From Olleya namhaensis (GTDB lineage Bacteria > Bacteroidota > Bacteroidia > Flavobacteriales > Flavobacteriaceae): DNA of 64,000 nt. Shown piece after piece: positions 9,710-61,553 of the stretch. Position 1 is the stretch's first letter; each line of letters opens with the position of its first letter. Location of the stretch: assembly GCF_900114005.1 (NCBI RefSeq), contig NZ_FORM01000010.1, positions 1 to 64,000 of the forward strand, written 5' to 3'. The notes beneath the pieces were generated by a model. The model saw only the letters and a program-made list of their open reading frames with translations, ran no database searches and was not told where the DNA came from. The position numbers and the translations under genes were made by a program.

Positions 9710-10303
9710 ATGTCATTATTTAAAAAAATCACTTACCTATTCATAATCAGTATGTTTTTTGCTTGTTCTGATGAAAATCAAAACCAAAAAAATGAGAGTT
9801 CTATTGATAGTGTAGAGATTCAATCTAAATTCTTATTTAGAGAAGCATTGAAGGAATTAGATGCTAACTTTGAAAATTTTAAGAAAATTAATAATATAGA
9901 GCTAAGTGATGATTTAATTATTGGAAAAGAAAAAGATGGTTTTATTTTTAAAGATGATATTAAAAAACAATTAGTTATTTTTAAAACAAAGCGTATTGGT
10001 TTACTTACTGGTTACGATATAGTTGTATCGGACTTTAGTTTGTTAAAAGCAATTGACAATAACGGGTTTCCTATGTTGATAGTCAAAGGGTATTGTAATC
10101 AAACTAAAGAACCTTTAACTATCGGAATAGATGTTTTAAAATTAAAAGACGGTTACAGTTTAAGAGTGCAAGATCCAATCTCTAGTATTGTATGTAATGG
10201 ATGCAGAAGAGGTTGTAATCCTAAACGTGATAGTGCAGGAGATGGTTATTGTACAGATTGTAAAATAACAAACAGTAATTGTTCTAAAACTGAAACTTTA
10301 TAA
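9710..10303 (+). CDS. Lipoprotein of unknown function with cysteine-rich C-terminus
   Basis: A 197-residue protein. It has a lipoprotein signal peptide (lipobox FFAC near residue 19), a short acidic/asparagine linker, a strand-rich middle domain and a C-terminal cysteine cluster (CNGCRRGC, then GYCTDCKITNSNC; seven cysteines in about 30 residues). The cluster could bind metal or form disulfides. I do not recognise the family. The gene sits alone between two identical terminators (9593 and 10326), which suggests that the gene-plus-terminator unit arose by duplication or insertion. Confidence 0.72.
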   Translation: MSLFKKITYLFIISMFFACSDENQNQKNESSIDSVEIQSKFLFREALKELDANFENFKKINNIELSDDLIIGKEKDGFIFKDDIKKQLVIFKTKRIGLLTGYDIVVSDFSLLKAIDNNGFPMLIVKGYCNQTKEPLTIGIDVLKLKDGYSLRVQDPISSIVCNGCRRGCNPKRDSAGDGYCTDCKITNSNCSKTETL

Positions 10304-34298: not shown

Positions 34299-34370
34299 GC
34301 GAAAGTAGCTCAGGGGTAGAGCATCACCTTGCCAAGGTGGGGGTCGCGGGTTCAAATCCCGTCTTTCGCT
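34299..34370 (+). tRNA. tRNA-Gly (anticodon GCC)
   Basis: 72 bases. The acceptor stem is GCGAAAG/CTTTCGC with the discriminator T, the D-arm is GCTC...GAGC, the anticodon stem CACCTTGCCAAGGTG carries GCC, and the T-arm contains GGTTCAAATCC. No CCA is encoded. Confidence 0.96.
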
Positions 34371-34397: not shown

Positions 34398-34481
34398 GCT
34401 GAAGTGGTGGAATTGGTAGACACGTTGGACTTAAAATCCAATGTCCATTAGGACGTACGGGTTCAAGTCCCGTCTTCAGTA
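34398..34481 (+). tRNA. tRNA-Leu (anticodon TAA)
   Basis: 84 bases, a class II tRNA with a long variable arm (TGTCCATTAGGACGT region). The anticodon arm TTGGACTTAAAATCCAA carries TAA and the T-arm has GGTTCAAGTCC. The acceptor stem begins with a G-T wobble pair. It lies 27 bases after tRNA-Gly, so the two share a transcript. Confidence 0.95.
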
Positions 34482-35145: not shown

Positions 35146-35513
35146 TGTTTCCTATTTTAGTGTTATAATGTCAAAATTAACAAGTTAATTGTAAAATACT
35201 ATTCTATTTATAACAAAATTTTAACATTTGGTCATTTAATGCCCGTTTTAGAGGTGTTTAGGTGGCTTTCAGAATGGATAGTTTGGCTTTGTTGCGTTTT
35301 CTGTTGTTAAATACATGGCTTTAGTGAATCTTTATGTCAAGTAAAAACGTTACAACAGCTTGATTAGTTCAATTTAATAATAATTAAAGAACTACTACTT
35401 ATTTTTGCTTAAAAGTGAGGTTTTGATATCTTTTTCAAGCGACTTATTGAGGAATAATTAGTTTTGTATACTATTTATTGAGTTTATTGTTTTATTGGTG
35501 TTATAAAATACCC
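35146..35513. other. Intergenic region upstream of the first alginate lyase operon
   Basis: About 370 AT-rich bases between divergent genes. I find no gene, tRNA or strong hairpin. Candidate -33 TTG triplets for the downstream promoter are at 35487 and 35495. Confidence 0.5.
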
Positions 35514-35545
35514 TATATTTGGTAAACCAGATTGGTAAACCAATT
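35514..35545 (+). promoter_or_regulatory. Promoter -7 element with overlapping tandem GntR operator, copy A (PL7 operon)
   Basis: The -7 box TATATTTG (35514-35521) runs directly into two operator units: TTGGTAAACCA at 35519-35529 and ATTGGTAAACCAAT at 35531-35544, with TGGTAAACCA spaced 13 bp apart. The block lies 9 bp before the ATG. FadR-type GntR regulators of hexuronate genes such as ExuR/UxuR recognise TGGTnnACCA palindromes. The regulator at 53134 is the obvious candidate. Confidence 0.8.
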
Positions 35546-35553
35546 ACTATATT

Positions 35554-36483
35554 ATGAAGAAATTACAGATTCATTTGTTGTTAATGTTAGTTTTTTGCGC
35601 TTGTAGCAGTGATGAGCAATCAGTGTCTACTGATACGATGTCGCAGCCGACATTAGTTAATGATAATGAGCCTGAAGATACTGATTCAGACGTCGATGCT
35701 ACAACCTATGCAGACATCAATTTTACTAACTGGAAAGTAACCTTACCTATAGATGAAAACAATAATGGGAGTCCGGATGAATACCAACCGTCTCAATTAG
35801 TCAATTTTGGATACCAAACTTTAGCACCTGTAATGCCTTATATGTATGATGACGAATCTGATGCGTCATTAATGTTTTATACATTTCCAGATATTTCAAC
35901 ATCAAATAGCTCTTTTTCAAGAACCGAATTAAGAGAGCTTATTAATCCTGATAGTTCTAGTGATAATTGGACGTTGCTGGAAGGAGGAGAAATGGTAGGG
36001 CGTTTAAAAGTCACGTCTGTATCAGAAAACACACAATCTAGTGATGATTATCATAAAGTAATAGTCATGCAAATTCATGGTGTTATTTCTCCGGAAGATA
36101 TGAGTGTTCATGGTTTTTCATCCAATAATGGCCCGCCTTTAATTAAAATTTATTGGAAAGATGGTTATGTTTGGTCCCATAAAAAATCACTAATAGATGA
36201 AGCCACTTCTGGTGATGATTTGTTAGAAACATCAAATAATACGTGGGCAGATATTAAAGTAAATTTAGGTTACGTGGGTAATGATGCTTTTGATTTTAGA
36301 ATTACAGCAAGTGATGCTAAAATTGTGGTTCAATTAAATACAAATACACCTCATATCTATGAAGATATTAGTTTAGACAAATGGCCTTATCAAAACTACT
36401 TTAAAGCAGGTAATTATTTAACAACTACAGATGCAGATGCATTTTCTTATGTTAAATACTACAATTTAAATGTCACACATTAA
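35554..36483 (+). CDS. Polysaccharide lyase family 7 alginate lyase (lipoprotein)
   Basis: 309 residues. A lipoprotein signal peptide ends around VFCAC, followed by an acidic serine/aspartate linker, which suggests surface or periplasmic anchoring. The PL7 jelly roll shows its three signature strands: RTELRE (arginine of the active site), QIHG (histidine; QIH is associated with guluronate-containing substrates) and YFKAGNY (catalytic tyrosine). It beta-eliminates alginate to unsaturated oligomers. It is the first gene of unit A and carries the operator in its promoter. Confidence 0.93.
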   Translation: MKKLQIHLLLMLVFCACSSDEQSVSTDTMSQPTLVNDNEPEDTDSDVDATTYADINFTNWKVTLPIDENNNGSPDEYQPSQLVNFGYQTLAPVMPYMYDDESDASLMFYTFPDISTSNSSFSRTELRELINPDSSSDNWTLLEGGEMVGRLKVTSVSENTQSSDDYHKVIVMQIHGVISPEDMSVHGFSSNNGPPLIKIYWKDGYVWSHKKSLIDEATSGDDLLETSNNTWADIKVNLGYVGNDAFDFRITASDAKIVVQLNTNTPHIYEDISLDKWPYQNYFKAGNYLTTTDADAFSYVKYYNLNVTH

Positions 36484-36497
36484 GCTATAAAAATTTA

Positions 36498-36524
36498 AGG
36501 CCTTTTAATACAAAAGGCTTTTTT
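36498..36524 (+). terminator. Hairpin with T-run between the PL7 and PL6 genes
   Basis: GCCTTTT pairs with AAAAGGC over a 5-base loop and is followed by six T. An overlapping alternative stem, AATACAAAA with TTTTGTATT (36507-36529), would exclude it. Since PL6 has no visible promoter of its own, this is probably a partial terminator or 3'-end stabiliser. Confidence 0.65.
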
Positions 36525-36562
36525 GTATTAAAAATAAATAACAACGCATTAATTATTCTTTT

Positions 36563-38869
36563 ATGAAAAAAATAGTATCCATTGTAATCTTATCCCTGTT
36601 ACTAGTTGCTTGTGGTAAAACAGAAATTGCTAGTTTAAACACCGTCTCTAATATAGAAGAGCTAAACACAGCTATAAAAGATGCTAAGCCAGGAGATAAT
36701 ATTGTTTTAGCAAACGGAACATACAAAGATTTTGAGATTAAGTTTACAGGAGAAGGAACAGAGGATAAGCCTATAACGCTAAAAGCTGAAACTGCTGGAA
36801 AAGTGTTTATAGAAGGAGAATCTAGTTTAGAAATTAGTGGAGATTATTTAGAGGTTAGTGGTTTGTTTTTTAGAAACGGACATTCTCCTAAAACCAATGT
36901 AATCGCATTTAGAACAAGTGCGAAGGACGTTGCAAATTACAGTAAAGTTACAAATTGTGTGATTTTAGATTTTAATAACTTAGAGCGCGATCAAGACAAC
37001 CTTTGGGTGCAGTTTTATGGAAAACATAACGAGTTAAGTAATTGTTATATCGCTGGAAAAACAAATGGTGGTCCAACGGTTAGAGTAGATTTAAAAGGAA
37101 ATCAAAGTATAAGAAACTTTCATAAAATTGTAAATAACCACTTCGGACCAAGACCACGTAAAGGTGGTGCTAGAGGAGAAACTATTCAATTAGGAAGTAG
37201 TTTTACATCTATGAGCCCAAGTAATACGACTATTGCTAACAACTTATTTGAAGAGTGTAATGGTGAAGTCGAAATTATTTCTAGTAAAACTAATTTCAAT
37301 ATTATTAAAAATAATGTGTTTTATAAAAGTGAAGGGTCTGTAGTTACACGTCACGGAAACTACGTTACTGTTGATGGTAATTATTTTATTGGAGATGGTG
37401 TAAACGACCAATATGGTGGTATTAGAATTATTAACACAGGACATTGGGTAATAAACAACTTGTTTTACAAAATCAAAGGGAAAAACTTTAGAAGTCCAAT
37501 TGCTATAATGAATGGAATTCCAAAATCACCATTAAACAGATACAACCAAGTTACAGATGTTGTAGTTGCTTACAATACGTTTGTAGATTCAGATTCGCCT
37601 TGGCAATTTGGAGTTGGTACTAATATCGCGCAAGCAGATGTATTGCCAAAGTCAGAAATTAGATCTGCAAGACCGTTAAGAACAGAGGTTGTAAATAATG
37701 TAATTTATAATTCTGTTGGTGATGCAAACCCAATTATAGAGCATGATAAAGCGGATGGTGTTACTTTTAAAAGTAATATTATTTACAATAACGGCGTTAA
37801 AATTGAAAACAGTCATGGTTTAATTTCTAAAGAATTAACGTTAACAGATATCGGTACAGATCTTTCTGTTCCAACGTCTGGATATGATGATGTAGAAATT
37901 TATAATGGTTTTGATTTTAAAACAATAACGGAAGATTTATTAGGAAATTCAAGAAGTAAATCAAATCAAATTGGAGCAATAGTAAATTCAGGAAGTGTTA
38001 ATTTAGACCTTTTGGATAAATCAAAATATGGTACGGATTGGTATTCAAATGTAGTTGGCGCTAAAGATCCTACGACATATACGGTGGCTAATACTTCAGA
38101 ATTAGTAGCCAAACTTAAAGCTGCAGAAAGTGGTGATATTATAGCTTTAACTGATGGTGTTTTTAATATTTCAGAATCTTTAGTTGTTGACAAAACAATC
38201 ACAATTCAATCTAAAGGAAATTCTGAAATTATATTTGAAGGAGCAGCTAATACACCAGCATTCTCTTTAAATCCTTACGGAAAATTAACTCTAAAAAACA
38301 TCAAATTAAAAGGTAATGGTTCTAATTATGCGTTTGCTAGTTTAAAAGAAAACATGTCTAATCATTTTGGTTTAGAAGTTGTGGATTCTGAAATCAGCAA
38401 TTTTAATTATGCTTTAAGGGTTTATAAGCAAGCCTATTCTGAAGAAATCACTTTCAAAAACACAGCTATTTCAAACTGTGAAAATGGTATCGAATTATCT
38501 GAAGAAACCAACGACAGAGGAGATTACAATACAGAGTATTTAACTATTAATAACTGTAATTTTGATAATGTAAAACAAAATGTTGTCGATTATTATAGAG
38601 GTGGTTATGACGAGTCTACCATTGGAGGGAATCTTTTAATCACAAATAGCACTTTTACTAATTGTGGTGCAAAAGAGAAAAACAAAAGATTACTAAACCA
38701 TAACGGAATTGTAAATGTGAACATTAACAATAACACATTTAAAAACAATAATGTAAAGTTTGTTTCTATTCTTTGGGGGGCAAAAAATAATGTAGAATCA
38801 GAAAACACAGTAACTAATTCAGGACAGATTAAGACTGAAGAAAATTTAGTTATGACATTAATGTATTAA
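36563..38869 (+). CDS. Polysaccharide lyase family 6 (two-domain alginate lyase, lipoprotein)
   Basis: 768 residues. A lipoprotein signal (LLVACG) precedes an N-terminal parallel beta-helix of the chondroitinase B/PL6 type (about residues 25-500). That helix carries the calcium/active-site stretch HFGPRPRKGGARGETIQLG and the likely catalytic lysine and arginine in EIISSKTN and VVTRHGN. From about residue 505 a second beta-helix begins (TYTVANTSELVAKLKAA). This layout matches two-domain PL6 enzymes such as the AlyGC type, which act exolytically on guluronate-rich alginate. Specificity here is inference. Confidence 0.92.
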   Translation: MKKIVSIVILSLLLVACGKTEIASLNTVSNIEELNTAIKDAKPGDNIVLANGTYKDFEIKFTGEGTEDKPITLKAETAGKVFIEGESSLEISGDYLEVSGLFFRNGHSPKTNVIAFRTSAKDVANYSKVTNCVILDFNNLERDQDNLWVQFYGKHNELSNCYIAGKTNGGPTVRVDLKGNQSIRNFHKIVNNHFGPRPRKGGARGETIQLGSSFTSMSPSNTTIANNLFEECNGEVEIISSKTNFNIIKNNVFYKSEGSVVTRHGNYVTVDGNYFIGDGVNDQYGGIRIINTGHWVINNLFYKIKGKNFRSPIAIMNGIPKSPLNRYNQVTDVVVAYNTFVDSDSPWQFGVGTNIAQADVLPKSEIRSARPLRTEVVNNVIYNSVGDANPIIEHDKADGVTFKSNIIYNNGVKIENSHGLISKELTLTDIGTDLSVPTSGYDDVEIYNGFDFKTITEDLLGNSRSKSNQIGAIVNSGSVNLDLLDKSKYGTDWYSNVVGAKDPTTYTVANTSELVAKLKAAESGDIIALTDGVFNISESLVVDKTITIQSKGNSEIIFEGAANTPAFSLNPYGKLTLKNIKLKGNGSNYAFASLKENMSNHFGLEVVDSEISNFNYALRVYKQAYSEEITFKNTAISNCENGIELSEETNDRGDYNTEYLTINNCNFDNVKQNVVDYYRGGYDESTIGGNLLITNSTFTNCGAKEKNKRLLNHNGIVNVNINNNTFKNNNVKFVSILWGAKNNVESENTVTNSGQIKTEENLVMTLMY

Positions 38870-38895
38870 TTCAATCACTTTAAATTTATTATTAG

Positions 38896-39915
38896 ATGAA
38901 GAAATCGCTATACACCTTCGTTATACTTTTAACGCTTATATCTTGTAAAGACGAAGCAAAAAAGACAGAAACAAAAGCTCAAGTTGAAACTGATGCACCA
39001 GTAAAATATCCAAGTGACGTTATTCCATTTATGGACCAGTGGAAAATCCTTTTAGGTGACGGAACCTATCAAGATAACTTAGTAGGCTTCCAGAAAGACG
39101 ATTTTTTTTATGTGGAAAACGATGGTAAAACGGATTGGGTAGTGTATAAAACACCAAATTCTGGTATTACATCAAGAACATCTAGTAATACTAGAACAGA
39201 GTTAGGTGAAAAAAAACATTGGATTCCTGAAGAAGGAGGTAAACTAACTGGAACATTAAAAGTGCAGCATGTGTCTACAACAGGGCATGCTAATGTTGCA
39301 TCGTCTTACTCGGTAGTTGTTGGGCAAATTCATAGCGACGAAGGTCATGAGAATGAACCCTTAAAAATCTTTTATAAAAAATTCCCGGGTCATACAAAAG
39401 GCTCTGTGTTTTGGAATTACGAAATCAATACGGAAGGTGATAACTCTGGAAGATTTGATTACTCAACGCCAGTTTGGGGTTATGATTTTTCAGTTAAAGG
39501 ATCTGATGAAACAACTAGTCCGGCAGAACCAAAAGATGGTATTGCTTTAGGTGAAGAGTTTAGCTACGAAGTAAATGTGCATAAAGGTATTATGTATCTA
39601 ACGTTTACAAGTAAAGGGCACGAAACTATAAAATTTACAAAAAGCTTAATTAAATCAGAATTTGCAACCAAAGCGCAAATTCCGCAACAAATTATTGATG
39701 TATATGCATCAAGAAGAGCGGTTGGCGTGGAACGAGAAATTGCTTATGCTGGCGAGATCAACTATTTTAAACAAGGCGCTTATAATCAGGCAAACGGAAA
39801 ATCTACAAAGTCTGAAACTTATGGTGGAGACATTGTAAAACAGTACGCAAACGGAAGTTATGCTGAGGTTTGGTTTAAAGAAGCAACAGTAGGCGCATCT
39901 ACAGAGCCTAAATAG
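38896..39915 (+). CDS. Polysaccharide lyase family 7 alginate lyase, second subtype (lipoprotein)
   Basis: 339 residues with a lipoprotein signal (LISCKDE). PL7 motifs differ from the first lyase: RTELGE, VVGQIHS and INYFKQGAYNQ. The last motif (YFKQGxYNQ) marks a different PL7 subfamily, often endolytic and guluronate-preferring. It follows PL6 by 26 bp and is in the same operon. The distinct subfamilies suggest division of labour rather than simple duplication. Confidence 0.92.
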   Translation: MKKSLYTFVILLTLISCKDEAKKTETKAQVETDAPVKYPSDVIPFMDQWKILLGDGTYQDNLVGFQKDDFFYVENDGKTDWVVYKTPNSGITSRTSSNTRTELGEKKHWIPEEGGKLTGTLKVQHVSTTGHANVASSYSVVVGQIHSDEGHENEPLKIFYKKFPGHTKGSVFWNYEINTEGDNSGRFDYSTPVWGYDFSVKGSDETTSPAEPKDGIALGEEFSYEVNVHKGIMYLTFTSKGHETIKFTKSLIKSEFATKAQIPQQIIDVYASRRAVGVEREIAYAGEINYFKQGAYNQANGKSTKSETYGGDIVKQYANGSYAEVWFKEATVGASTEPK

Positions 39916-39945
39916 AAACTGCATTGCACAATTTAGCATAATAAA

Positions 39946-39968
39946 TGTCTGGTTGGGTGCGGTTGAAG
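39946..39968. repeat. Short dispersed repeat of the CTGAGYGYAGTYGAAG family (degenerate)
   Basis: TGTCTGGTTGGGTGCGGTTGAAG lies 30 bp after the PL7 stop (read as TGTC, then TGGTTGGGTGCGGTTGAAG). It aligns with 45851-45873 and with the inner part of 6615-6632. Confidence 0.5.
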
Positions 39969-40093
39969 CAGCACTTTTTGAATCGCAAATGTGGTAATAA
40001 AATATTGACATGTCTATAATGGTAAATTAGTCGGACAATGCAGAGTTTGTAAAGGTGTTACATCTGAAAATTAAAAACAATAAGTATAAGCAG

Positions 40094-41977
40094 ATGAAAA
40101 AAGTTATATTCATAATGGGAGTCTCGGGGTGTGGAAAAAGCACAGTCGGGAAATTATTGGCTCAAGAATTAGATATTCCTTTTTTTGATGGAGACGATTT
40201 TCATCCAGAAGCTAACATAAAAAAAATGTCTAACGGACAACCTTTAAATGATGATGATAGACAAGGTTGGTTAGAAACACTAAATGATTTAGCTAAAAAG
40301 CAATTAACTGAAAATAGCTGCGTAATTGTATGTTCTGCTTTAAAGCAGAAATACAGAGATACTTTAAGTTTACATATTAAAACCGAAACAAAATGGGTGT
40401 ATTTGTCAGGGTCTTTTGATCAGATATTTGAAAGATTAAATAGTCGTGATAACCATTTTATGCCATCAGAGTTATTAAAGTCACAGTTTGATACATTGGA
40501 AGAACCAAAAGATGCTTTAAGAGTGGATATTGGCTTGACTCCAGAAAACATTATAAAAACGATAAAACACGAATTAATGAATACTTCGGAATTTGGATTA
40601 TTTGGTTTAGGTGTCATGGGTAAAAGCCTATGCCGAAATTTAGCTAACAACGGATTTAAAATAGCAATGTTTAATAGGCATGTTGATGGTGTTGAAGTTG
40701 ATGTAGCTAAAAATTTTAAAACTAACTATCCGGAATTATCTGAAGCATCTGCTTTTGATGATATTTCTGCTTTTGTAGCATCTTTACAAACACCTAGAAA
40801 AATAATGTTGATGGTGAATGCAGGAAAAACAATAGACTTTGTTATTGAAGATTTGTTACCTCATTTATCAAAAAACGATATTTTAATTGATGGCGGAAAT
40901 TCTAATTATTTAAAAACGAAAGAACGTTGTGATTATTTAAAAACGAAAGGCATTCATTTTATTGGTACCGGAGTTTCAGGAGGCGAAGAAGGGGCTTTAA
41001 AAGGACCATCGATAATGCCAAGTGGCGATTTAGATGCATACAATAATGTGAAGCCTTTTCTAGAAAAAATTTCGGCAAAGGATAAAAATAATTTGCCCTG
41101 TTGCACGTATGTTGGGCCGGAAGGTAGTGGTCATTTTATAAAAATGGTGCACAATGGTGTGGAGTATGTAGAAATGCAATTATTAGCAGAGGTTGTTACC
41201 ATTTTAGAAGCATCTGGTCAAAATTTAGATCAGATAGCGGATGTTTTAGACACTTGGAAAGCCACTGCAGATAGCTATTTGTTAGAAATCACTATAGATA
41301 TTCTTAGAAAAAAAGAAGGCAACGAATGGTTAGTAAAAAAGATATTAGATAAAGCAGGTAATAAAGGTACAGGAAACTGGACAACTATAGCTTCCGCGGA
41401 ACTTGGTGTACCAAGTACATTAATTGCTTCAGCTTTATTTGCTAGATATACGTCGTTTTATAAAGACGAACGTATTCAGTTAAATAATAATTTTAAAACT
41501 GAAACTACTTCAGATTTAAATCTGTCTACAACCGAAATTTTAGAAGCATATCAATTTGCTAGGATTATAAATCATTACCAGGGATTTAAGCTAATTAATG
41601 AAGCTTCAAATAAATTCTCATGGGATTTAAATTTAAGTGAAATTGCTAGAATCTGGACAAATGGTTGCATTATTAGATCAACGCTAATGGAAACATTAGT
41701 TGAGGTCTTTAAAGAAACAACAAACATTTTAACCAATCCAGAAGTTATTACTTCAATAAAAAAGTACAAGGCTTCTGCTAAAAAAGTGGTTTCGCAATGT
41801 GTACTAAATGATGTTACGGCATCTTGTTTATGTGAATCTATTCAATTTTTAAACGGAATAACTACTGTAAATTCTTCAGCAAATATAATCCAAGCACAGC
41901 GCGATTATTTTGGAGCGCATACTTACAAAAGAATTGATGATGATGGAGTCAAGAGCCATCATACCAATTGGAATTAA
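40094..41977 (+). CDS. Bifunctional gluconokinase / 6-phosphogluconate dehydrogenase (decarboxylating)
   Basis: 627 residues from the ATG at 40094. Residues 1-165 are a GntK gluconokinase: P-loop MGVSGCGKST, DGDDFHPEANIKKM and a closing IGLTPENIIKTI. Residues 167-627 are a full-length 6PGDH: NADP site LFGLGVMGKSL, DGGNSNY, the substrate loop GVSGGEEGALKGPSIMPSG, the catalytic lysine in GHFIKMVHNG, and the C-terminal RDYFGAHTYKR. One chain could thus turn gluconate into ribulose-5-phosphate, CO2 and NADPH. Neither step lies on the alginate-KDG route, although the gene is in unit A. The reason is unknown; NADPH supply for DEH reduction is one idea. Confidence 0.93.
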   Translation: MKKVIFIMGVSGCGKSTVGKLLAQELDIPFFDGDDFHPEANIKKMSNGQPLNDDDRQGWLETLNDLAKKQLTENSCVIVCSALKQKYRDTLSLHIKTETKWVYLSGSFDQIFERLNSRDNHFMPSELLKSQFDTLEEPKDALRVDIGLTPENIIKTIKHELMNTSEFGLFGLGVMGKSLCRNLANNGFKIAMFNRHVDGVEVDVAKNFKTNYPELSEASAFDDISAFVASLQTPRKIMLMVNAGKTIDFVIEDLLPHLSKNDILIDGGNSNYLKTKERCDYLKTKGIHFIGTGVSGGEEGALKGPSIMPSGDLDAYNNVKPFLEKISAKDKNNLPCCTYVGPEGSGHFIKMVHNGVEYVEMQLLAEVVTILEASGQNLDQIADVLDTWKATADSYLLEITIDILRKKEGNEWLVKKILDKAGNKGTGNWTTIASAELGVPSTLIASALFARYTSFYKDERIQLNNNFKTETTSDLNLSTTEILEAYQFARIINHYQGFKLINEASNKFSWDLNLSEIARIWTNGCIIRSTLMETLVEVFKETTNILTNPEVITSIKKYKASAKKVVSQCVLNDVTASCLCESIQFLNGITTVNSSANIIQAQRDYFGAHTYKRIDDDGVKSHHTNWN

Positions 41978-42014
41978 AAAACAAACTAACCAACCCTTAA
42001 ACTAACTACATATT

Positions 42015-43289
42015 ATGGATGCAACAACGCCAAATAAATCACTAATCAAAAAAATCATAGCACTAGTATTGGGCTTTGGTCCTGGAATTTTTGCAATAGG
42101 TTACACTATTGGAACAGGTAGTGTTACCTCTATGATTGTTGCGGGAAGTAAGTTTAATATGCAATTACTTTGGGTGTTATTATTAAGTTGCTTGTTTTCG
42201 GGTATTTTAATGTTTGCATATGGTAATTATGCTTTGTTAACAGGCGAAACTGCACTTTACGGATTTAAAAAACATTTTAAATATGGTAAAATATTAGCAA
42301 TTCTAATTATTGTAGGTATTACGTTTGGGCAATGGAACTCCTTAATGGGGATCTTGGGAATTTCTTCTAATATTATTTTTGAAATTTTATCCGTAAACTT
42401 TGAAGGCTTGGCTGCTTATAAATATGAAACCGTTTTAATTACAGCTATAGTGATTATCGTTACTTTTTACCTATTAATGTTAGTTGGTAAGTATACCTTC
42501 TTTGAAAAAATACTTGTGATTTTTGTAACCTTAATGGGGTTATCTTTTGTGTTATCTTTATGCTTTGTACAGCCGCTTCCATTGGATGTTGTAAAAGGGT
42601 TAATACCTACAATACCAGATGTTGTTGGTGGTAAAATGTTGGTTGCTGCTTTTGTTGGTACAACTATGGCTTCGGCTACATTTTTATCGCGCCCTCTTTT
42701 TGTGAAAGGTAAAGGATGGACAATTAAAAATTTAGATCAACAAAAAAAGGATGCTATTACTGCTGCAATTTTAATTTTTATAATTAGTGGTGTGATAATG
42801 GCTGTTGCTGCAGGTGCTTTGTTTTATCAAGGTAGAGAAGTAACACATGTCTTAGATATGGCAAATACTTTAGAGCCAGTTGCTGGTAAATGGGCTGTGA
42901 CAATCTTCTTTTTTGGGGCTTTAAGTGCAGGTTTATCTTCTATTTTTCCATGTTTGTTAATTGCACCATTATTAGTTGCAGATTATCAGTCTGGAGAATT
43001 AGATACCAATTCTCGTCAGTTTAGAATAATTACTGCTGTAGCATGTTTGGTAGCTTTAATAGGTCCAGCTTTTGGAGCTAATCCTATTGAGATTCAAATA
43101 CTGTCTCAAGTCTTTAATGTGTTTGTATTACCTCTAGTAATTATTGGAATTATAATGATGGTAAACAACAAAAAAATTATGAAGTCTTACAAGACAAGTC
43201 TTTTTGTAAACATTGGTTTGTTTGCGGCTTTACTTTTTTCTTTAGTGATTTCTTATAACGGTATTGTTGCACTAACAGAGTACTTTTAA
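42015..43289 (+). CDS. Nramp-like carrier lacking canonical metal-binding motifs
   Basis: 424 residues with 11-12 predicted membrane helices and an overall Nramp/LeuT-fold layout. In helix 1 the metal-binding DPGN of MntH/DMT1 is replaced: the aligned stretch reads AIGYTIGTGSVTSM. In helix 6 the MPH motif is replaced by MAS in GTTMASATFLSRP. A typical manganese/iron transporter needs these residues. The operon (alginate lyases and gluconokinase-6PGDH) suggests an organic acid such as gluconate or a uronate as cargo. That is inference; a divalent-ion role is not excluded. Confidence 0.82.
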   Translation: MDATTPNKSLIKKIIALVLGFGPGIFAIGYTIGTGSVTSMIVAGSKFNMQLLWVLLLSCLFSGILMFAYGNYALLTGETALYGFKKHFKYGKILAILIIVGITFGQWNSLMGILGISSNIIFEILSVNFEGLAAYKYETVLITAIVIIVTFYLLMLVGKYTFFEKILVIFVTLMGLSFVLSLCFVQPLPLDVVKGLIPTIPDVVGGKMLVAAFVGTTMASATFLSRPLFVKGKGWTIKNLDQQKKDAITAAILIFIISGVIMAVAAGALFYQGREVTHVLDMANTLEPVAGKWAVTIFFFGALSAGLSSIFPCLLIAPLLVADYQSGELDTNSRQFRIITAVACLVALIGPAFGANPIEIQILSQVFNVFVLPLVIIGIIMMVNNKKIMKSYKTSLFVNIGLFAALLFSLVISYNGIVALTEYF

Positions 43290-43377
43290 GATAACCAGTC
43301 TTTTGGGTTATTATCAAAATAGTATAGATTAGAGTTAAATGTGAATATGTTTTTTTTGGTTAACAGTAAAAACCTCG

Positions 43378-43408
43378 TATATTGGTAAACCAATTTGGTA
43401 AACCAATT
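43378..43408 (+). promoter_or_regulatory. Promoter -7 element with overlapping tandem GntR operator, copy B (PL17-kdgF)
   Basis: TTG at 43356-43358 and a near-consensus -7 TATATTGG (43378-43385) with 19-base spacing. Two TTGGTAAACCAAT-type units (43382-43394 and 43395-43408) again have a 13-bp period. Unlike copy A, the ATG is about 150 bp downstream, so the mRNA has a leader. The leader shows no obvious structure. Confidence 0.8.
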
Positions 43409-43560
43409 TTAATTAGTGATGTGATTTATCATAATAACTAAGTTAAAACACAAGGGTTTCTCTAGAATGATGTTAAGAGTATTTACAATTATAATTTTAA
43501 TGACATTGCTTTAAGCTAAGTCAACAATTAATAAATAGGAATTATTACTTATAACTAATT

Positions 43561-45840
43561 ATGAAGTTAACACAAAATATTATTTTAAAGTTTGCTACAG
43601 TTGCACTTGTTTTTACGATGTATTCATGTAAAAAAGAAACTAATGCTGTATCCAAAAATAATGCTACTACACAAACAGATCAAGCACATCCTAAGCTTAT
43701 TTTAACAGCGCAAGGTGTTAAAGATATTAGAGCGCAATTGGGTGATATTCCAATTTTTGATGCCACTTTAGAAGCTGTTAAAGAAGAAATAGATGCTGAA
43801 ATTGCACTAGGAATTGATACGCCAATACCTGTAGATTATTCTGGTGGATATACGCATGTACGTCATAAGCGTAATATGATAGTTATGCAAAAGGCTGGAG
43901 TGTTATACCAAATTTTAGACGACGAAAAATATGCTAAATATGTAAAAGACATGTTGATGCAATATGAGGCGTTGTACAAAACATTACCATTACACCCTAA
44001 AACAAGATCTTACGCTAGAGGTAAACTATTCTGGCAATGTTTAAATGATTCTAATTGGTTAGTGTATGTGAGTCAGGCTTATGACTGTGTTTACAATTAT
44101 TTGTCTGAAGACGAACGTGTCAAATTAGAAACTAATTTATTCAAACCATTTGCAGATCATATTTCAATAGATAGTCCTCAGTTTTATCAAAGAGTACACA
44201 ATCATAGTACTTGGGGTAATGCTGCGGTTGGAATGATTGGTTTAGTTATGGGTGATGAAGAGTTGTTAGACCGCGCTTTGTACGGTATTAAAGGTTTAAA
44301 ATTAGATACAAAAGAAAAAGATGATGATGGTGGTTTTTTAAATAAAGATGGTAAAGCAGGATTCTTAGCAAATATCGAGGAGCCTTTTTCTCCAGACGGT
44401 TATTATAATGAAGGGCCATATTACCAACGCTACGCGATGTATCCTTTTTTAATTTTTGCTGAAGGTTTGCATAACGTCAAACCAGAATTGAAAATATTTG
44501 AATATAAAGAAGGGGTTTTACTTAAATCTATAAATACATTATTGAATTTGTCTGATGCAGATGGAGATTTTTTTCCACTTAATGATGGTCAAAAGGGAAT
44601 GTCTTATTATACAAGCGCTTTAGTTACAGCAGTTGATATTTCGTATCATTTTGGAATTCAAGATGCAGGATTATTATCAATAGCCTCTAAACAAGATCGT
44701 GTATTATTAGACGATTCAGGGTTGGCGGTTGCATTAGGTATTAAGAATGGTAAATCGGAACCTTTCAATAAACAATCTATTAACCTGTCTGATGGACCAA
44801 AAGGGACACAAGGAGGTGTTGCTATTTTGAGAAACGACGATGTAGAGTTGGTGTTTAAGTATGCTGCTCAAGGGTCAAGTCACGGGCATTATGATAAGTT
44901 GTCGTATTCTTTATACGAAAAAGGAGAAGAAGTTATTCAAGATTATGGTTTAGCGCGTTTTGTTAATATCGAACAAAAAGGAGGTGGTAATTACCTAAAG
45001 GAAAACAAGACTTGGGCAAAACAAACTATTGCACACAATACGGTAACACAAAATGAAACATCTCATTTTAATGCCAAATATGAAATAGGTAGTAAGCATC
45101 ACTCGGTGTTAAACTATTTTTCTTCAGAAAATCAAAATGTGCAAGTTGCAAGTGCTAAAGAAGTTAATGCTTATCCAGGGACGGAAATGCTGCGTACTAT
45201 GGCAATTATTAAAGACGAAGATTTTGAAAAACCATATGTGTTAGATATTATGAAGGTGACTTCGGATAAAGCTAATAAGTATGATTTTCCATATTACTTT
45301 TTAGGACAAGTAGTGCAAACAAATTTTAAGTATAGCGTACCTAAGGTATTAACTGCTTTGGGGGATAAAAACGGATATCAACATCTATTTGTAGAAGGGA
45401 CTGCAAAAGCGTCTAGCGATAATAGTAAATTATCATGGTTAAATAAAGGTAAGTTTTACACTTTAACATCTGTAACTAATGATAAAGATCAATTGCTTTT
45501 TACTAGAATTGGAGCAAACGATCCAGAATTTAATTTAAGAAGAGAGGCAGCATTAATGTTGAGACGCAAAGATTCTAAAAACACAATTTTTGTATCTACT
45601 ATCGAAGCGCACGGAAGTTATAGTCCAGTTACAGAATCTGCAATAAATTCTAACAGTAACATAAAAGAATTAAAAGTGGTTTTAGATTCTGCAGATTATA
45701 CGGCAGTGCAGATTACTAATATAAAAGGTAAGGTCAAACTGTTTATAACATCAAATGAAGAAGACTCTAAAAAAGTAAAACATAATGTAAAAATTAATGA
45801 TAAGAATTATGAGTGGTCAGGTTCTTATTATTTTGAATAA
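43561..45840 (+). CDS. Polysaccharide lyase family 17 oligoalginate lyase (lipoprotein)
   Basis: 759 residues. The lipoprotein signal ends MYSCKKE. The N-terminal alpha-barrel holds the VHNHSTWGNAA pair (asparagine-histidine, as in the active site of Alg17c) and the GYYNEGPYYQRY tyrosines. The heparinase II/III-like beta domain starts near residue 410, with SSHGHYDKLSY and QDYGLARF. PL17 enzymes act exolytically on alginate oligomers to release unsaturated monomer, most likely in the periplasm. First gene of unit B. Confidence 0.95.
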   Translation: MKLTQNIILKFATVALVFTMYSCKKETNAVSKNNATTQTDQAHPKLILTAQGVKDIRAQLGDIPIFDATLEAVKEEIDAEIALGIDTPIPVDYSGGYTHVRHKRNMIVMQKAGVLYQILDDEKYAKYVKDMLMQYEALYKTLPLHPKTRSYARGKLFWQCLNDSNWLVYVSQAYDCVYNYLSEDERVKLETNLFKPFADHISIDSPQFYQRVHNHSTWGNAAVGMIGLVMGDEELLDRALYGIKGLKLDTKEKDDDGGFLNKDGKAGFLANIEEPFSPDGYYNEGPYYQRYAMYPFLIFAEGLHNVKPELKIFEYKEGVLLKSINTLLNLSDADGDFFPLNDGQKGMSYYTSALVTAVDISYHFGIQDAGLLSIASKQDRVLLDDSGLAVALGIKNGKSEPFNKQSINLSDGPKGTQGGVAILRNDDVELVFKYAAQGSSHGHYDKLSYSLYEKGEEVIQDYGLARFVNIEQKGGGNYLKENKTWAKQTIAHNTVTQNETSHFNAKYEIGSKHHSVLNYFSSENQNVQVASAKEVNAYPGTEMLRTMAIIKDEDFEKPYVLDIMKVTSDKANKYDFPYYFLGQVVQTNFKYSVPKVLTALGDKNGYQHLFVEGTAKASSDNSKLSWLNKGKFYTLTSVTNDKDQLLFTRIGANDPEFNLRREAALMLRRKDSKNTIFVSTIEAHGSYSPVTESAINSNSNIKELKVVLDSADYTAVQITNIKGKVKLFITSNEEDSKKVKHNVKINDKNYEWSGSYYFE

Positions 45841-45850
45841 ATAAAATAAA

Positions 45851-45873
45851 TGTCAGACTGAGTGCAGTTGAAG
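45851..45873. repeat. Short dispersed repeat of the CTGAGYGYAGTYGAAG family
   Basis: TGTCAGACTGAGTGCAG followed by TTGAAG, 10 bp after the PL17 stop and just before kdgF. It is related to 39946-39968 and 6615-6632. Confidence 0.55.
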
Positions 45874-45899
45874 TGCTCAAAAAATTAAATATAAATATT

Positions 45900-46271
45900 A
45901 TGAAAAGATTTAGCGAAAAGTACATAGTAACAAAAGACATGGAATGGGAAGTGCTTGGTGGAGGAGTATCAAGAAAATTTTTAGGTTACGATAATCAAAT
46001 AATGATGGTGAGTGTTAAATTTGATAAAGGGGCTTTAGGAGCGCCACATCAACATTTTCATACGCAAGCGACTTATTGCGTGTCAGGTAAATTTGAATTT
46101 GAAATTGATGGTGTAAAGCAAATAGTAGAAGCCGGAGATGGTGTTTATATTGAGCCTAATTTACTACATAGTGCGGTTTGTTTAGAAGAAGGACAGTTAA
46201 TAGATACATTTAGTCCTGTAAGAGAAGACTTTTTAACTGGCGTTGGTCCATCTTATTTTGCAGATAAATAA
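45900..46271 (+). CDS. kdgF: KdgF cupin, unsaturated uronate ring-opening enzyme
   Basis: 123 residues from the ATG at 45900. A single cupin domain has metal ligands in PHQHFHTQATYCVSGKFEFEID (two histidines and a glutamine) and a later histidine in PNLLHSAV. The arginine in SPVREDFL is conserved. KdgF converts the 4,5-unsaturated uronate released by PL17 into the linear keto sugar DEH. Unit B thus couples monomer release with ring opening. Confidence 0.93.
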   Translation: MKRFSEKYIVTKDMEWEVLGGGVSRKFLGYDNQIMMVSVKFDKGALGAPHQHFHTQATYCVSGKFEFEIDGVKQIVEAGDGVYIEPNLLHSAVCLEEGQLIDTFSPVREDFLTGVGPSYFADK

Positions 46272-46428
46272 ATAAAGCATTTAGTTGTTTTATTGTTTTC
46301 TAGTCTAGATGTTACTAAATACTAGTAAATCAGCAATACAACGCGCTAATGTTTGCTATTTTAACACCAATATCCTCTATTTTAACATTTAAAAATTACG
46401 AAAACGTTGTAATTAACAAAATTTTATA
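46272..46428. other. Intergenic region between kdgF and the susC promoter
   Basis: About 155 AT-rich bases with no gene and no strong terminator. It contains the -33 TTG (46407-46409) of the susC promoter. Confidence 0.4.
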
Positions 46429-46460
46429 TATATTTGGTAAACCAGATTGGTAAACCAATT
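46429..46460 (+). promoter_or_regulatory. Promoter -7 element with overlapping tandem GntR operator, copy C (susC operon)
   Basis: -33 TTG at 46407-46409, 19-base gap, and the exact -7 TATATTTG at 46429-46436. The operator (46434-46460) is identical over 27 bp to copy A, with two TGGTAAACCA units 13 bp apart. Confidence 0.83.
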
Positions 46461-46649
46461 CCTATCAGGTGTTTAACCACAAAAAAAGGATAGGTTTTAA
46501 AGCCTACCCTTTTAATAAAAATACTTCTTCGACGGGAAGTAATTATGTTAAAAACATAACATTACAAAAGTAGCAAACATATTGATACTTGCCTAATAAT
46601 TGTGTTTTTAGTAAAACAAATTAATTAACTAATAACTTAAAAATTAATT
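46461..46649 (+). other. Structured 5' leader of susC
   Basis: About 190 bases between promoter and ATG. It contains several small inverted repeats: TAGG with CCTA (about 46490-46508), ACTTC with GAAGT (about 46526-46541) and TATGTT with AACATA. No known riboswitch is recognised. Confidence 0.35.
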
Positions 46650-49600
46650 ATGAATTTAAAAGCTAAATCGGCACTATTTGCAATGCTCTTCATGTGTATT
46701 GCTGCTTTTGCGCAAGACAGTGTAACAATAAAAGGAGCAGTGGTTGATGCAGAGTACAGCATGCCATTGCCTAATGTAAATGTTATTATTGTAGGAACTA
46801 GTACTGGGGCAAGTACGGATTTTGATGGTAACTATCAAATACAAGCCAAAAAAGGAGATGTTATACAATTCTCATATATTGGATATACTGCAAAGACCGT
46901 TATTGTTGGTGCTCAAACAACCGTTAATGTAGCTCTAGGTGTAGATGCTAATACTTTGGAAGAAGTAGTAATTGTTGGGTACGGAACACAAAAGAAAAGT
47001 CATTTAACAGGTTCTATATCTAAAGTAACAAACGAAGATTTAGATCAGATTGCTGTTTCTAGAGTAGATGATGCTTTAGTAGGACAAGTTTCTGGTGTAA
47101 ATATCGCAGCAACACAAGGGGAAGCGGGTTCTGCTCCTACGATTAGAATTAGAGGTACAGGTTCTGTATCTGGTAGTTCTGATCCATTAATTGTTGTTGA
47201 TGGTCTTGTTGTTGATAATGATTACTTAGGGTCGTTAAATATGAATGATGTTGCTTCTTTTGAGGTGCTTAAAGATGCAGCTTCTGCTGCTATTTATGGT
47301 TCTCGTGGAGGTAATGGAGTTATCATGATTACAACTAAAGAAGGTAAATCAGGAAAAACAAAATTCACATATAATACGTTAACAGGTTTTAAAGAAGCAA
47401 GACAAAGTGAAGATTACTATTTTTCAGTAGCAGAAACTGCTGCTGCAGAATTAGCTGCAACTGGAACATTGTCTGATAGAACAAAATACAAGCAGTTAAT
47501 AGGTATTGATAACGACTGGCAAAATATTATTTTTGATGGTGGAGTTATTACTACACACTCATTTAGTGCTAGAGGTGGAGATGATAAAACTAAATTTAGT
47601 ACATCTTTAGGGTATATTCATGATGAAGGTGTATTATTAACTGATGAAGTTAAAAACTATAGTTACAAATTAAGATTAGATACTAAGTTAACAGATAAGC
47701 TTTCTATGGGGATTAATCTTAACCCTTCTTTTAATGATAAAAGACGTTTTGATGGATCAACTCATGATATTTTAAGACAGACCTCTTGGTTACCTGTTTA
47801 TCATGATGAAAACACAATTAGATTTGTAGACAGAGGGACTTATCCTGATGTTCAAGTTGGTGATTACGCAACACAACGTCATTTTGATAATTATGATTTA
47901 TATGGAGACGGTAGTACATTAGTAGATATTAGTAATACGTCTAATACAAATCCAGCTGCAAAAGTTTTAGAGCGTCAAAGAAACGAGTACAAGCTTAAAT
48001 TAAGAGCTAGTTTATATGGTAAATATGACTTTAATGATAATTTATCATTTAAAAGTACAATTGGAGGAGATTACCAAAATACAGTTAGAGAAAGAAATCA
48101 AGGTCCTTTAGCTAGTCGTAATGGTGAGTCTGCAGTTCAATATGATGAAGAAGTACTTAACGTATCTAGATTAGTTTCTGATAATTTCTTATCATATAAT
48201 AAAGGATTTGGTAATCATGATGTTTCTGCAGTATTAGGGGCGTCTTCAGAATTACAAAAAGGAGAGTATAAAGCAACTAGATTAACAGGTTACAACTCTG
48301 AGTTAGAAGGTACTTTAGGTGGTACTACAACTGTTGGAGCTGGTAACCAATTTGAATATAAGCAAGCTTTGTTTTCTTATTTTTTAAGAGTAAACTACGC
48401 ATATGATGATAAGTATTTAGCATCAATCAGTTTAAGACGTGATGGAAGTTCTGTTTTTGGAGAAGACAATAAATATGGAACATTTCCAGCAGCATCTTTA
48501 GGTTGGAATATTTCTAAAGAAGACTTTTTGTCTGAAAGCGAAGTAGTTAATAATCTTAAATTTAGAGTGAGTTATGGTGTTACAGGTAACAATGCACTAA
48601 GAATAGCTTCTAACTCTGTGTTAGATAACAATGCATTAATTAACTATTACCCATCATTATCTTTAGCGTCTAATTTTAGTTATGCAGGAGATTCGGCTAT
48701 AAGTGCAATTAATATTGCTAACCCTGATTTAAAATGGGAACGTTCTGTCGAAATAAATCCAGGTATTGATTTTGGTCTTTTTAATAATAGAATTACAGGT
48801 TCTGTAGATGTGTACAAGCGTACAAGTGATCAATTATTATTATCTAACCCTATATCTAACACAACTGGATTTAGTGAAGCTTTAGTAAATATTGGTAAAG
48901 TGGAAAACAGAGGTATTGAATTAGAACTTAGAACTAAGAATGTTAATACTCAAGATTTTAAATGGACATCAACAATGTTGGCTTCTAGAAATAAAAATGA
49001 GTTAATTGACTTTGCAGATTCTAATGGTCAAATTTTAAATGTAGATTCTAAAAGAGCTGCAGAATGGATAAATCAAGTTGGTCAGCCAATATCTTCATTT
49101 TACGGTTGGGTAGTTGAGTCTGATATTCCATTAGAGTATATCGCTAATCCATACCATCCAATCGGAGGGGAAGCACAAGATGTTTATGTAAAAGATTTAA
49201 ATGGTGATGGTGTAATTGATGATGATGATAAAACTAAATTAGGAGATCCTTACCCGGATATTGTATGGAGTTTTACAAACGATTTCCAATTTGGAGATGT
49301 GGATTTAAGCTTTATGTTTCAAGGTAGTCATGGTGCAGAGGTGAGAAATATGGGAGATCAATATTTATTTAACCATTTTAATTCTTCTCAAGATTTTATT
49401 TCTTCAACACCAAACCAACAATTTATAAAGCAGAAAATATTTACTGATGATATTATTCAAGACGCTTCATACGTAGCTTTAAGAACTGTAAGTATTGGGT
49501 ATAATTTTACTGATAAATTATTAGATAAAACATTATTTTCTAAAGCAAGAGTGTATGCTACAGGGCAAAACTTATTGTATGTAACAGCAAGTGATTATAC

Positions 49601-49712
49601 AGGTTTTAACCCAGAGTCTGTAGATAATACGTCGGCTACTACTTACGGGTATCAAAGAGGAGGTTCTCCTATTCAAAGAACAATTTCTGTTGGATTAAAC
49701 CTAGAATTTTAA
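46650..49712 (+). CDS. susC: SusC/RagA family TonB-dependent oligosaccharide importer
   Basis: 1020 residues. It has a signal peptide (ending AAFAQ), a carboxypeptidase-regulatory-like domain (VTIKGAVVDAEYSMPLPNVN), a TonB box-like EEVVIVGYGTQ, a plug domain (GQVSGVNI...LIVVDG...YGSRGGNGVIMITTK) and a 22-strand barrel ending in LNLEF. With SusD it forms the outer-membrane pedal-bin importer. The neighbours indicate alginate oligomers as cargo. First gene of unit C. Confidence 0.96.
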   Translation: MNLKAKSALFAMLFMCIAAFAQDSVTIKGAVVDAEYSMPLPNVNVIIVGTSTGASTDFDGNYQIQAKKGDVIQFSYIGYTAKTVIVGAQTTVNVALGVDANTLEEVVIVGYGTQKKSHLTGSISKVTNEDLDQIAVSRVDDALVGQVSGVNIAATQGEAGSAPTIRIRGTGSVSGSSDPLIVVDGLVVDNDYLGSLNMNDVASFEVLKDAASAAIYGSRGGNGVIMITTKEGKSGKTKFTYNTLTGFKEARQSEDYYFSVAETAAAELAATGTLSDRTKYKQLIGIDNDWQNIIFDGGVITTHSFSARGGDDKTKFSTSLGYIHDEGVLLTDEVKNYSYKLRLDTKLTDKLSMGINLNPSFNDKRRFDGSTHDILRQTSWLPVYHDENTIRFVDRGTYPDVQVGDYATQRHFDNYDLYGDGSTLVDISNTSNTNPAAKVLERQRNEYKLKLRASLYGKYDFNDNLSFKSTIGGDYQNTVRERNQGPLASRNGESAVQYDEEVLNVSRLVSDNFLSYNKGFGNHDVSAVLGASSELQKGEYKATRLTGYNSELEGTLGGTTTVGAGNQFEYKQALFSYFLRVNYAYDDKYLASISLRRDGSSVFGEDNKYGTFPAASLGWNISKEDFLSESEVVNNLKFRVSYGVTGNNALRIASNSVLDNNALINYYPSLSLASNFSYAGDSAISAINIANPDLKWERSVEINPGIDFGLFNNRITGSVDVYKRTSDQLLLSNPISNTTGFSEALVNIGKVENRGIELELRTKNVNTQDFKWTSTMLASRNKNELIDFADSNGQILNVDSKRAAEWINQVGQPISSFYGWVVESDIPLEYIANPYHPIGGEAQDVYVKDLNGDGVIDDDDKTKLGDPYPDIVWSFTNDFQFGDVDLSFMFQGSHGAEVRNMGDQYLFNHFNSSQDFISSTPNQQFIKQKIFTDDIIQDASYVALRTVSIGYNFTDKLLDKTLFSKARVYATGQNLLYVTASDYTGFNPESVDNTSATTYGYQRGGSPIQRTISVGLNLEF

Positions 49713-53133: not shown

Positions 53134-53835
53134 ATGAAGTTAGAGGTCCTTACAAAAAATGAAAATTTTAGTATTCAGAAGCAAATTATTGCCAATATAA
53201 GAGATTTAATAAATGTTAAAAATCTTGAGCCAGGGGATAAATTACCAGCGGAACGTGTACTGTCAGAAAAATTTGAAGTTTCTAGAAGTAGTGTAAGGGA
53301 AGCAATTCAAAAATTAGAATTTTATGGGTTATTAAAGTCTATTCCTCAAAGTGGGACGTTTGTCGCAAATATTGGGGTTATTGCATTAAATGGAATGATC
53401 GAAGATATTTTAAGATTGGAAGATCCTGAATTTAAATCGTTAGTAGAAACTAGAATTCTTTTAGAACTTAAAACAGTAAAGTTAGCTGCTTTAAGACGTA
53501 CAGAAGAAGATTTAATTAAATTGAAAGAAGCTTTAGATGCTTACAGTAATAAAGTAAAAAACAAAGAGGATGCTGTTCAAGAAGATTTATTATTTCATCT
53601 GGCAATAGCAAGAGCAAGTGGTAATAGTTCTATGAATACGTTCATGTTAATTATTACGCCTGAAATTATAACAAATTTTGAAAAGTATCATGTTTGTCAT
53701 AAAGGGTTATCAGCAAGTGCAATTACTGAGCATCAATTAATTTTTGATGCGATAAAAAAACAAGATCCGGTTGAAGCTAAAAAAGCAATGAAAAACCATT
53801 TTAACGAATTATACAAATACTGTTATAATTTATAG
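53134..53835 (+). CDS. FadR-subfamily GntR transcriptional regulator of the alginate locus
   Basis: 233 residues. The N-terminal winged helix (about 10-75) shows the GntR pattern LEPGDKLPAERVLSEKFEVSRSSVREAIQKLE...SGTFV. The C-terminal all-helical FCD ligand domain has the metal-site pattern: aspartate in EEDLLFHLAIA (D-x3-H-like) and later histidines (EHQLIFDAI, MKNHF). FCD members respond to uronate-type acids. It most likely represses units A, B and C through the TTGGTAAACCA operators until an alginate-derived acid such as KDG or DEH binds. No such operator precedes its own gene. Confidence 0.9.
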   Translation: MKLEVLTKNENFSIQKQIIANIRDLINVKNLEPGDKLPAERVLSEKFEVSRSSVREAIQKLEFYGLLKSIPQSGTFVANIGVIALNGMIEDILRLEDPEFKSLVETRILLELKTVKLAALRRTEEDLIKLKEALDAYSNKVKNKEDAVQEDLLFHLAIARASGNSSMNTFMLIITPEIITNFEKYHVCHKGLSASAITEHQLIFDAIKKQDPVEAKKAMKNHFNELYKYCYNL

Positions 53836-61451: not shown

Positions 61452-61541
61452 GGGCGTTACCACAAGGGTCGGGTTATCCGCTAAAATCTTTTTTTGCCAT
61501 ATATGGCAGCAAAAAAAGGATACCGCTTCTATCCCTAACGC
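61452..61541. repeat. REP-like dispersed repeat, copy 2
   Basis: Begins GGGCGTTACCACAAGGGTCG and ends CCCTAACGC, with the same central TTTTTTTGCCATATATGGC hairpin as 6583-6694 but without its inner insertion. It fills most of the 109-bp gap between the DegT gene and galE, ending 12 bp before the galE ATG. Confidence 0.78.
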
Positions 61542-61553
61542 ATATAACCACAT

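Follow-up and report, generated by a model that had tools for sequence, protein, structure and literature searches.

Tandem operators of a probable AusR-type repressor and a predicted antisense RNA at the susC gene of an alginate cluster in Olleya namhaensis

The alginate utilization cluster of Olleya namhaensis (Flavobacteriaceae) was analyzed for its control elements on a stretch of 64,000 nucleotides (NCBI RefSeq assembly GCF_900114005.1, contig NZ_FORM01000010.1, positions 1 to 64,000 of the forward strand), which is referred to as the window. Members of the Flavobacteriaceae rank among the principal marine consumers of alginate, a major polysaccharide of brown algae. The cluster consists of three gene units, assigned using Pfam: unit 1 with the order PL7 (polysaccharide lyase family 7), Chondroitinas_B family (PL6-like), PL7, a P-loop kinase fused to 6-phosphogluconate dehydrogenase (6PGD), and Nramp; unit 2 with a PL17-type lyase followed by a cupin; and unit 3 with susC, susD, a PKD protein, PL7, an ausR-like gene, a major facilitator superfamily (MFS) transporter, a short-chain dehydrogenase/reductase (SDR), a PfkB kinase, a member of the 2-keto-3-deoxy-6-phosphogluconate (KDPG) aldolase family, and EamA. 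From gene order and strand we infer that the genes of each unit are co-transcribed. The names PL6-like, PL17, KdgF (cupin), DehR (SDR), KdgK (PfkB) and Eda (KDPG aldolase) were presumed from context and general knowledge. Each unit is preceded by a 27-bp block of two TGGTAAACCA palindromes with 13-bp phasing, and the minus strand between the block and the start codon of susC carries a predicted gene for a small antisense RNA (Table 1).

The blocks are probably tandem operators of an AusR-type GntR/FCD repressor, the product of the ausR-like gene starting at 53134 (hereafter 53134), with the antisense RNA as an additional layer of control at susC. The operator-regulator part is largely of a known kind, i.e. 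the AusR regulon. The new part is the conserved antisense RNA gene between the susC operator and susC, which had escaped an earlier note on this DNA, as had the overlap of the operators with the -7 promoter boxes.

The three blocks were found where the earlier note had placed them, and its description of copies 1 and 3 as identical and of copy 2 as deviating solely in the 2-base spacer was reproduced. Screening of the window for TTGGTAAACCANNTTGGTAAACCA with up to 3 mismatches resulted in 3 matches, compared to 0.00 expected from 100 shuffles, which served as control for the window scan. That the motif occurs nowhere else in the window held for the paired form and not for single units, as TGGTNNACCA was also located at 14972, 41404 and 59156, each time within an open reading frame (ORF). 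A genome-wide scan for the paired motif, as the note had proposed, was run on the full 3,522,968 bases (3.52 Mb) and gave solely the 3 exact matches and one match with 3 mismatches, the latter within a 127-aa ORF. Single units with up to 1 mismatch were not enriched in the genome (267 per strand vs. 284 for the reversed pattern, the control in the operator scans) and were dropped as evidence, so that information was ascribed solely to paired units and to perfect sites within promoters.

Perfect 12-bp sites (TTGGTNNACCAA) occur 20 times in the genome, 4 of them in the blocks and 13 inside ORFs, while the remaining 3 are located before a fourth PL7 gene, before a histidine-kinase gene and 85 bp from a 427-aa ORF, respectively. 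The fourth PL7 gene of this genome lies on a different contig (C14), unlinked to the cluster, and its one perfect operator, TTGGTTAACCAA, starts 97 bp 5' of the ATG; since just 3 of the 16 perfect sites outside the blocks are non-ORF sites, a chance origin appears unlikely, though a lone site proves little. The alginate regulon postulated earlier is thus less compact than assumed, as it would extend to this unlinked gene. On contig C13 (1501-1525 in the extracted locus), the site 5' of the histidine-kinase gene consists of a perfect operator and a degenerate second unit at 13-bp distance; the gene is possibly a further member of the regulon, or the site a chance occurrence. When the operator sequence was looked up in the literature, only unrelated primers were among the matches listed.

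By genome-wide search, 53134 is the sole FCD-domain GntR protein of the genome, with Pfam scores above cut-off for both GntR (68.9 bits) and FCD (90.3 bits), and it is encoded inside the alginate polysaccharide utilization locus (PUL), surrounded by genes for PL7, PL6-like and PL17 lyases, SusC/SusD and KDPG aldolase. Named relatives with 74-88% identity, the closest (88%) from Olleya marilimosa, were collected together with their surroundings, whereby 80 of 351 AusR loci found were retained for analysis (1.52 Mb in total). Arrays of 2-4 units with 13-bp phasing are present in 74 of the 80 loci. Perfect TGGTNNACCA pairs are spaced by 13 bp in 99 cases, by 26 bp in 28 and by 39 bp in 2, and four further spacings, none above 200 bp, are represented by one pair each. 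The loci without array are L030, L059, L064, L074, L090 and L094, four of which are short contigs. Including the window, 102 arrays were obtained (62 of 2 units, 36 of 3 and 4 of 4), none of them inside a long ORF, and in the family set of 249 Flavobacteriaceae genomes a perfect pair was detected in 59, the reversed control in 0. The proposal of the earlier note that this FadR-type GntR protein is the candidate regulator is supported both by its being the only FCD-domain member and by the pairs at the AusR loci.

In five Aquimarina loci (L042, L085, L086, L087, L092), a two-unit array near position 9953 lies directly 5' of ausR, which suggests autoregulation, whereas the window's own ausR has no array before the gene. 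In more distant AusR relatives, which share 49-50% identity and belong to other families of the class, nearby TTGGTTGACCAA units with a spacing of 15 bp instead of 13 bp were seen in 2 of the 3 loci read (L184 12126-12150; L185 9636-9687), and the operator spacing may have changed together with the protein.

Flavobacterial primary-sigma promoters contain TAnnTTTG at -12 to -5 (PMC9723704), and transcription starts were predicted at the end of this -7 box +5, following the rule given in the same source. For promoter statistics, the 101 of 102 arrays with enough upstream sequence were used. In 89 of them, the first TG of operator unit 1 is the TG of the box; a TTG is located 17-21 nt 5' of the box in 57 arrays, and at exactly 19 nt in 41. 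The PL7 and susC promoters of the window match this array-in-box pattern, while the box of the PL17 promoter is imperfect. At susC, unit 1 spans approximately -6 to +4 and unit 2 approximately +8 to +17, and the additional units of relatives run further downstream. Arrays starting inside the -7 box fit repression via promoter occlusion, and the placement of the units as a whole corresponds to that of a repressor acting by roadblock or occlusion.

The susC leader comprises ~209 nt from the predicted start, and the predicted antisense RNA is fully complementary to its positions of approximately +41 to +120. It contains three hairpins, and its terminator ends ~20 nt short of operator block 3. Across 45 loci, the predicted length ranges from 72 to 106 nt (median 88; window 80 nt). 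The hairpin pattern was matched by 51 leaders, of which 50 were aligned as minus strand and one (L077) was omitted because of a different terminator. In this alignment 98.6% of the cells are paired and 5 pairs are changed on both sides; none of 500 shuffles was as good on any of five measures. As a wobble that reads G.U on one strand becomes an A.C mismatch on the other, the strand of the element can be assigned: in the terminator stem, the 50 rows contain 54 wobbles compatible with pairing on the minus strand and 2 compatible with pairing on the plus strand (two-sided binomial p 4e-14, ignoring relatedness). For 24 matches outside the alignment, out of 30 further ones, the wobbles in both stems amount to 21 for the minus strand and 0 for the plus strand, and in the 30 further matches 100% of the cells pair, in an alignment fitted to the structure.

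The position of the 5' hairpin was tested with the promoter box as anchor, which was present in 72 of 81 loci. In 71 of the 72 segments, the distance between predicted start and hairpin is at most 6 nt, despite widely differing sequences, and among 64 distinct 5' segments the minus strand folds better in 61 and the plus strand in 2. The antisense RNA of the window folds with a z-score of -4.1. In 37 of the 51 leaders CAAANNTA, the reverse of TAnnTTTG, is present on the plus strand downstream of the middle hairpin, compared to 3.9 for shuffles. Beside the operator array of another locus (L216 in genome G087), the middle hairpin was found to be swapped for GACATAC/GTATGTC, with the terminator hairpin retained.

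Table 1 Features of the alginate cluster in the window, sorted by position
Feature	Position	Strand	Basis or remark
-33-like TTG, PL7 promoter	35495..35497	+	16 nt 5' of -7 box
-7 box TATATTTG, PL7 promoter	35514..35521	+	last two bases common to operator unit 1; predicted start ~35526
Tandem operator block 1	35519..35545	+	units TGGTAAACCA at 35520 and 35533; precedes PL7
PL7-type alginate lyase gene, first of unit 1	35554..36483	+	Pfam (Alginate_lyase2)
-33-like TTG, PL17 promoter	43356..43358	+	sequence
Imperfect -7 box TATATTGG, PL17 promoter	at 43378	+	sequence
Tandem operator block 2	43382..43408	+	units at 43383 and 43396; precedes PL17
PL17-type oligoalginate lyase gene	43561..45840	+	Pfam (Alginate_lyase + Hepar_II_III_C)
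Cupin gene (KdgF-like), 3' of PL17	45873-46271	+	Pfam
-33-like TTG, susC promoter	46407..46409	+	19 nt 5' of -7 box
-7 box TATATTTG, susC promoter	46429..46436	+	overlaps operator unit 1; predicted start ~46441
Tandem operator block 3	46434..46460	+	units at 46435 and 46448; precedes susC
Predicted antisense RNA, ~80 nt	46481..46560	-	read from 46560 down to 46481; complementary to susC leader
Terminator hairpin + U-tract of antisense RNA	46481..46513	-	fold + alignment
Middle hairpin UACUUC/GAAGUA of antisense RNA	46522..46541	-	fold + alignment
5' hairpin of antisense RNA	46542..46560	-	begins at predicted start
-7 box TACTTTTG, antisense promoter	46565..46572	-	sequence
susC-type TonB-dependent receptor gene, first of unit 3	46650..49712	+	Pfam
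ausR-like gene, 233 aa, GntR winged-helix + FCD	53134..53835	+	candidate repressor

The distribution of the element was assessed using a covariance model built on the 50-row alignment. In the genome of the window, it gave a single strong match of 70.1 bits, the next one reaching 33.7. At E <=0.001, the 249 family genomes yielded 89 matches, 48 scoring 53 bits or more, distributed over 46 genomes, and 41 scoring 45.4 bits or less; some of the strong-match genomes had also fed the alignment, and 24 of the first 30 had not. All 48 strong matches, the window's included, have a 13-bp operator pair (<=2 mismatches) within ~320 nt and on the expected side, and the antisense box is present in 39 of them (shuffled mean 5.5, maximum 11; other strand 0). 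A long ORF lies on the opposite strand of the match in 29 of 30 cases. Of the weak matches, 20 of the 41 were inspected: 5 adjoin an array, and the other 15 have none beside them and resemble ordinary terminators. At the AusR loci, a model match was found in 55 of 80, always antisense and in 54 cases adjoining an array; the remaining locus, L074, has only a decayed array. In the class set (295 genomes, stricter filters), matches were confined to 2 genomes, namely that of the window and another Flavobacteriaceae genome; the frequency within the family should therefore not be extrapolated to the phylum. Two antisense elements per genome, a few kb to ~14 kb apart and each at its own operator array, were observed in three genomes (L192 + L225 in G026, L193 + L204 in G236, L139 + L201 in G248). 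Among the papers listed by searches of the open-licence PubMed Central (PMC) literature, none concerned a flavobacterial antisense RNA at an alginate locus, and the antisense RNA gene beside the susC promoter is apparently both conserved and so far unreported.

Taken together, the following course of regulation is proposed. In the absence of alginate, repressor dimers on units 1 and 2 would exclude RNA polymerase from the PL7, PL17 and susC promoters, and the unlinked PL7 gene would be repressed likewise via its single unit. The antisense promoter lies outside the operator and would stay active while AusR is bound, so that its RNA could meet any leaky susC leader and damp residual susC messenger by pairing or by transcriptional interference, in the manner of DonS. 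Because the RNA stops short of the susC start codon (46650), duplex cleavage or transcriptional interference would be likelier than a ribosome block. In the presence of alginate, a breakdown product would release the repressor from the operators (the effector of AusR is reportedly 2-keto-3-deoxygluconate, KDG), and strong convergent susC transcription would then override the antisense unit. Whether alginate-eating flavobacteria possess a dedicated three-hairpin antisense RNA family, conserved over dozens of genera, transcribed from a promoter of its own in the direction of the AusR operator and forming with AusR a double lock on the uptake gene that gives the alginate response a sharp threshold, is in our estimate evenly balanced; further targets in trans may exist for the conserved CCUCC loop.

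Several observations weigh against the proposed repressor-plus-antisense control. The middle hairpin is near-invariant (5 of 6 pairs) and hence offers little covariation, a -33 TTG at 17-21 nt of the antisense box is found in just 1 of 37 leaders, and the exact box is absent from 14 of the 51. As the RNA ends before the start codon, a block of translation would be indirect. No model match was obtained in 25 of the 80 loci, several of them on contigs ending early, from which it follows that the antisense RNA is not essential to the regulon. An RNAalifold fold of the sense leader, for which 24 of 37 aligned leaders were used, gave 5 pairs with zero covariation, a result that equally speaks against a structure acting in the susC messenger.

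Among the alternatives, it is conceivable, though unlikely, that the antisense RNA acts mainly in trans via its CCUCC-bearing loop, with the susC leader serving as its nursery. Conservation of the middle hairpin across genera, often with a CCCUCC loop, would not be needed for cis complementarity and favors such a role; however, the loop varies in several alignment rows, and the longest word shared with the sense leader elsewhere in the window is 12 nt and A-rich (a figure for the window only). Rather doubtful is the explanation that the repressor alone matters and that the minus-strand element is a terminator with a weak promoter, which keeps stray antisense transcripts out of the operator and the genes upstream and has no regulatory role: the terminator hairpin is the most conserved part, with a U-tract that stops shortly before the operator, a -33 TTG is lacking from the antisense promoter and 25 of the 80 loci lack the element, but the fixed promoter box, the start-anchored 5' hairpin and the near-invariant middle hairpin exceed what a terminator needs. 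Some FadR-type regulators act as activators, and 53134 might accordingly recruit polymerase by a pair of dimers. This is very improbable, as unit 1 on the -7 box and the further units downstream of it occupy the place for blocking polymerase, and AusR is called a repressor in the literature (PMC8286568, PMC7874173). Hardly credible at all is an attenuator or riboswitch in the susC messenger, our initial reading of the leader, since the good fold of the sense strand (z-score -5.3 for the same stretch, with a hairpin followed by four U) is to be expected for the complement of a hairpin, and wobbles, fold preference, RNAalifold and an Rfam scan of the susC leader, in which no family reached cut-off, are all against it.

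Two further candidates in the leader were discarded. With a relaxed threshold, the search for a known RNA family resulted merely in sub-threshold matches to unrelated families, and a long sense hairpin around the antisense box was unsupported by the alignments, a part of it corresponding to the 5' hairpin of the antisense RNA.

With regard to the neighboring genes, the kinase-6PGD fusion in the PL7 operon (40055-41977) carries a P-loop kinase domain (SKI/AAA, gluconokinase-like) together with a complete 6-phosphogluconate dehydrogenase and is followed by the Nramp-type transporter gene (42015-43289), both being unusual company for alginate genes. Two tRNA genes (34299-34370 and 34398-34481) lie ~1.1 kb 5' of the first alginate operator and are a possible entry point of the cluster. 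A Flavo-1 RNA (RF01705, 53.2 bits) was annotated at 61463-61547 on the minus strand; this motif is widespread in flavobacteria and has no known function.

If the combination of repressor and antisense RNA proposed here is true, the alginate loci of Flavobacteriaceae would combine two controls, a repressor released by a small molecule and, at the uptake gene, a conserved antisense RNA. For experimental work, the locus supplies precise coordinates, a promoter box and a covariance model whose strong matches all lie at AusR arrays. The F. psychrophilum (Flavobacterium psychrophilum) transcriptome study points to antisense RNAs of Bacteroides PULs and presents the antisense RNAs listed there as a point of departure for such work in flavobacteria (PMC9723704).

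Concerning the operators, the earlier note had drawn an analogy to the sites of ExuR/UxuR regulators. With respect to the sites described in PMC4494728, this applies to UxuR, with TKGT/ACMA boxes and 2 nt between GT and AC, and not to ExuR, with 3 nt, so that UxuR appears to be the better comparison for the spacing; the portion of that source on the FadR subfamily includes no Bacteroidetes regulator and makes no mention of tandem 13-bp phasing. E. coli NanR, which is among the closest solved relatives of 53134 by sequence, is likewise a GntR/FCD repressor on closely repeated sites, (GGTATA)3 (PMC8012715). NanR, however, binds direct repeats via a 32-residue N-terminal extension according to this account, whereas the units described here are palindromic, and the GntR domain of 53134 starts at residue 15, leaving no room for a NanR-like cooperativity extension.

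The most similar system is found in Zobellia galactanivorans (Dudek et al. 2020, doi 10.1093/nar/gkaa533), where alginate utilization is under a GntR repressor, AusR, which is encoded in an alginate PUL and controls most alginate genes (PMC7874173, PMC8286568, PMC8073546). It binds promoters via single, double or triple operator copies (PMC7874173, PMC8286568), to which the double copies of the window, the single one at the unlinked PL7 gene and the 2-4 units in relatives correspond. By this likeness of operators and locus as described for another organism, 53134 is the apparent counterpart of Zobellia AusR. The passages on AusR in the three sources mention no antisense RNA.

For the RNA, FopS of B. 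thetaiotaomicron (Bacteroides thetaiotaomicron) is comparable in that small RNAs repress susC messengers, but FopS is multicopy and acts in trans at the start codon (PMC11697453), whereas one strong genomic copy with full cis complementarity was found here. Closer are the DonS RNAs of Bacteroides PULs (Cao et al. 2016; PMC7366714, PMC9723704), which are antisense to a susC homologue and have their own promoter and an intrinsic terminator. DonS is described as one of a family of cis-antisense RNAs of 78-128 nt at susC homologues that lower the expression of these genes (PMC7366714), and of the lengths predicted here a few lie slightly below this range, while the window's RNA falls within it. 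The present element differs in that it occurs in Flavobacteriaceae, where it belongs to an alginate locus and adjoins tandem repressor operators. Judged by these descriptions, the antisense RNA resembles DonS in its presumed mode of action, and descent from DonS is not claimed.

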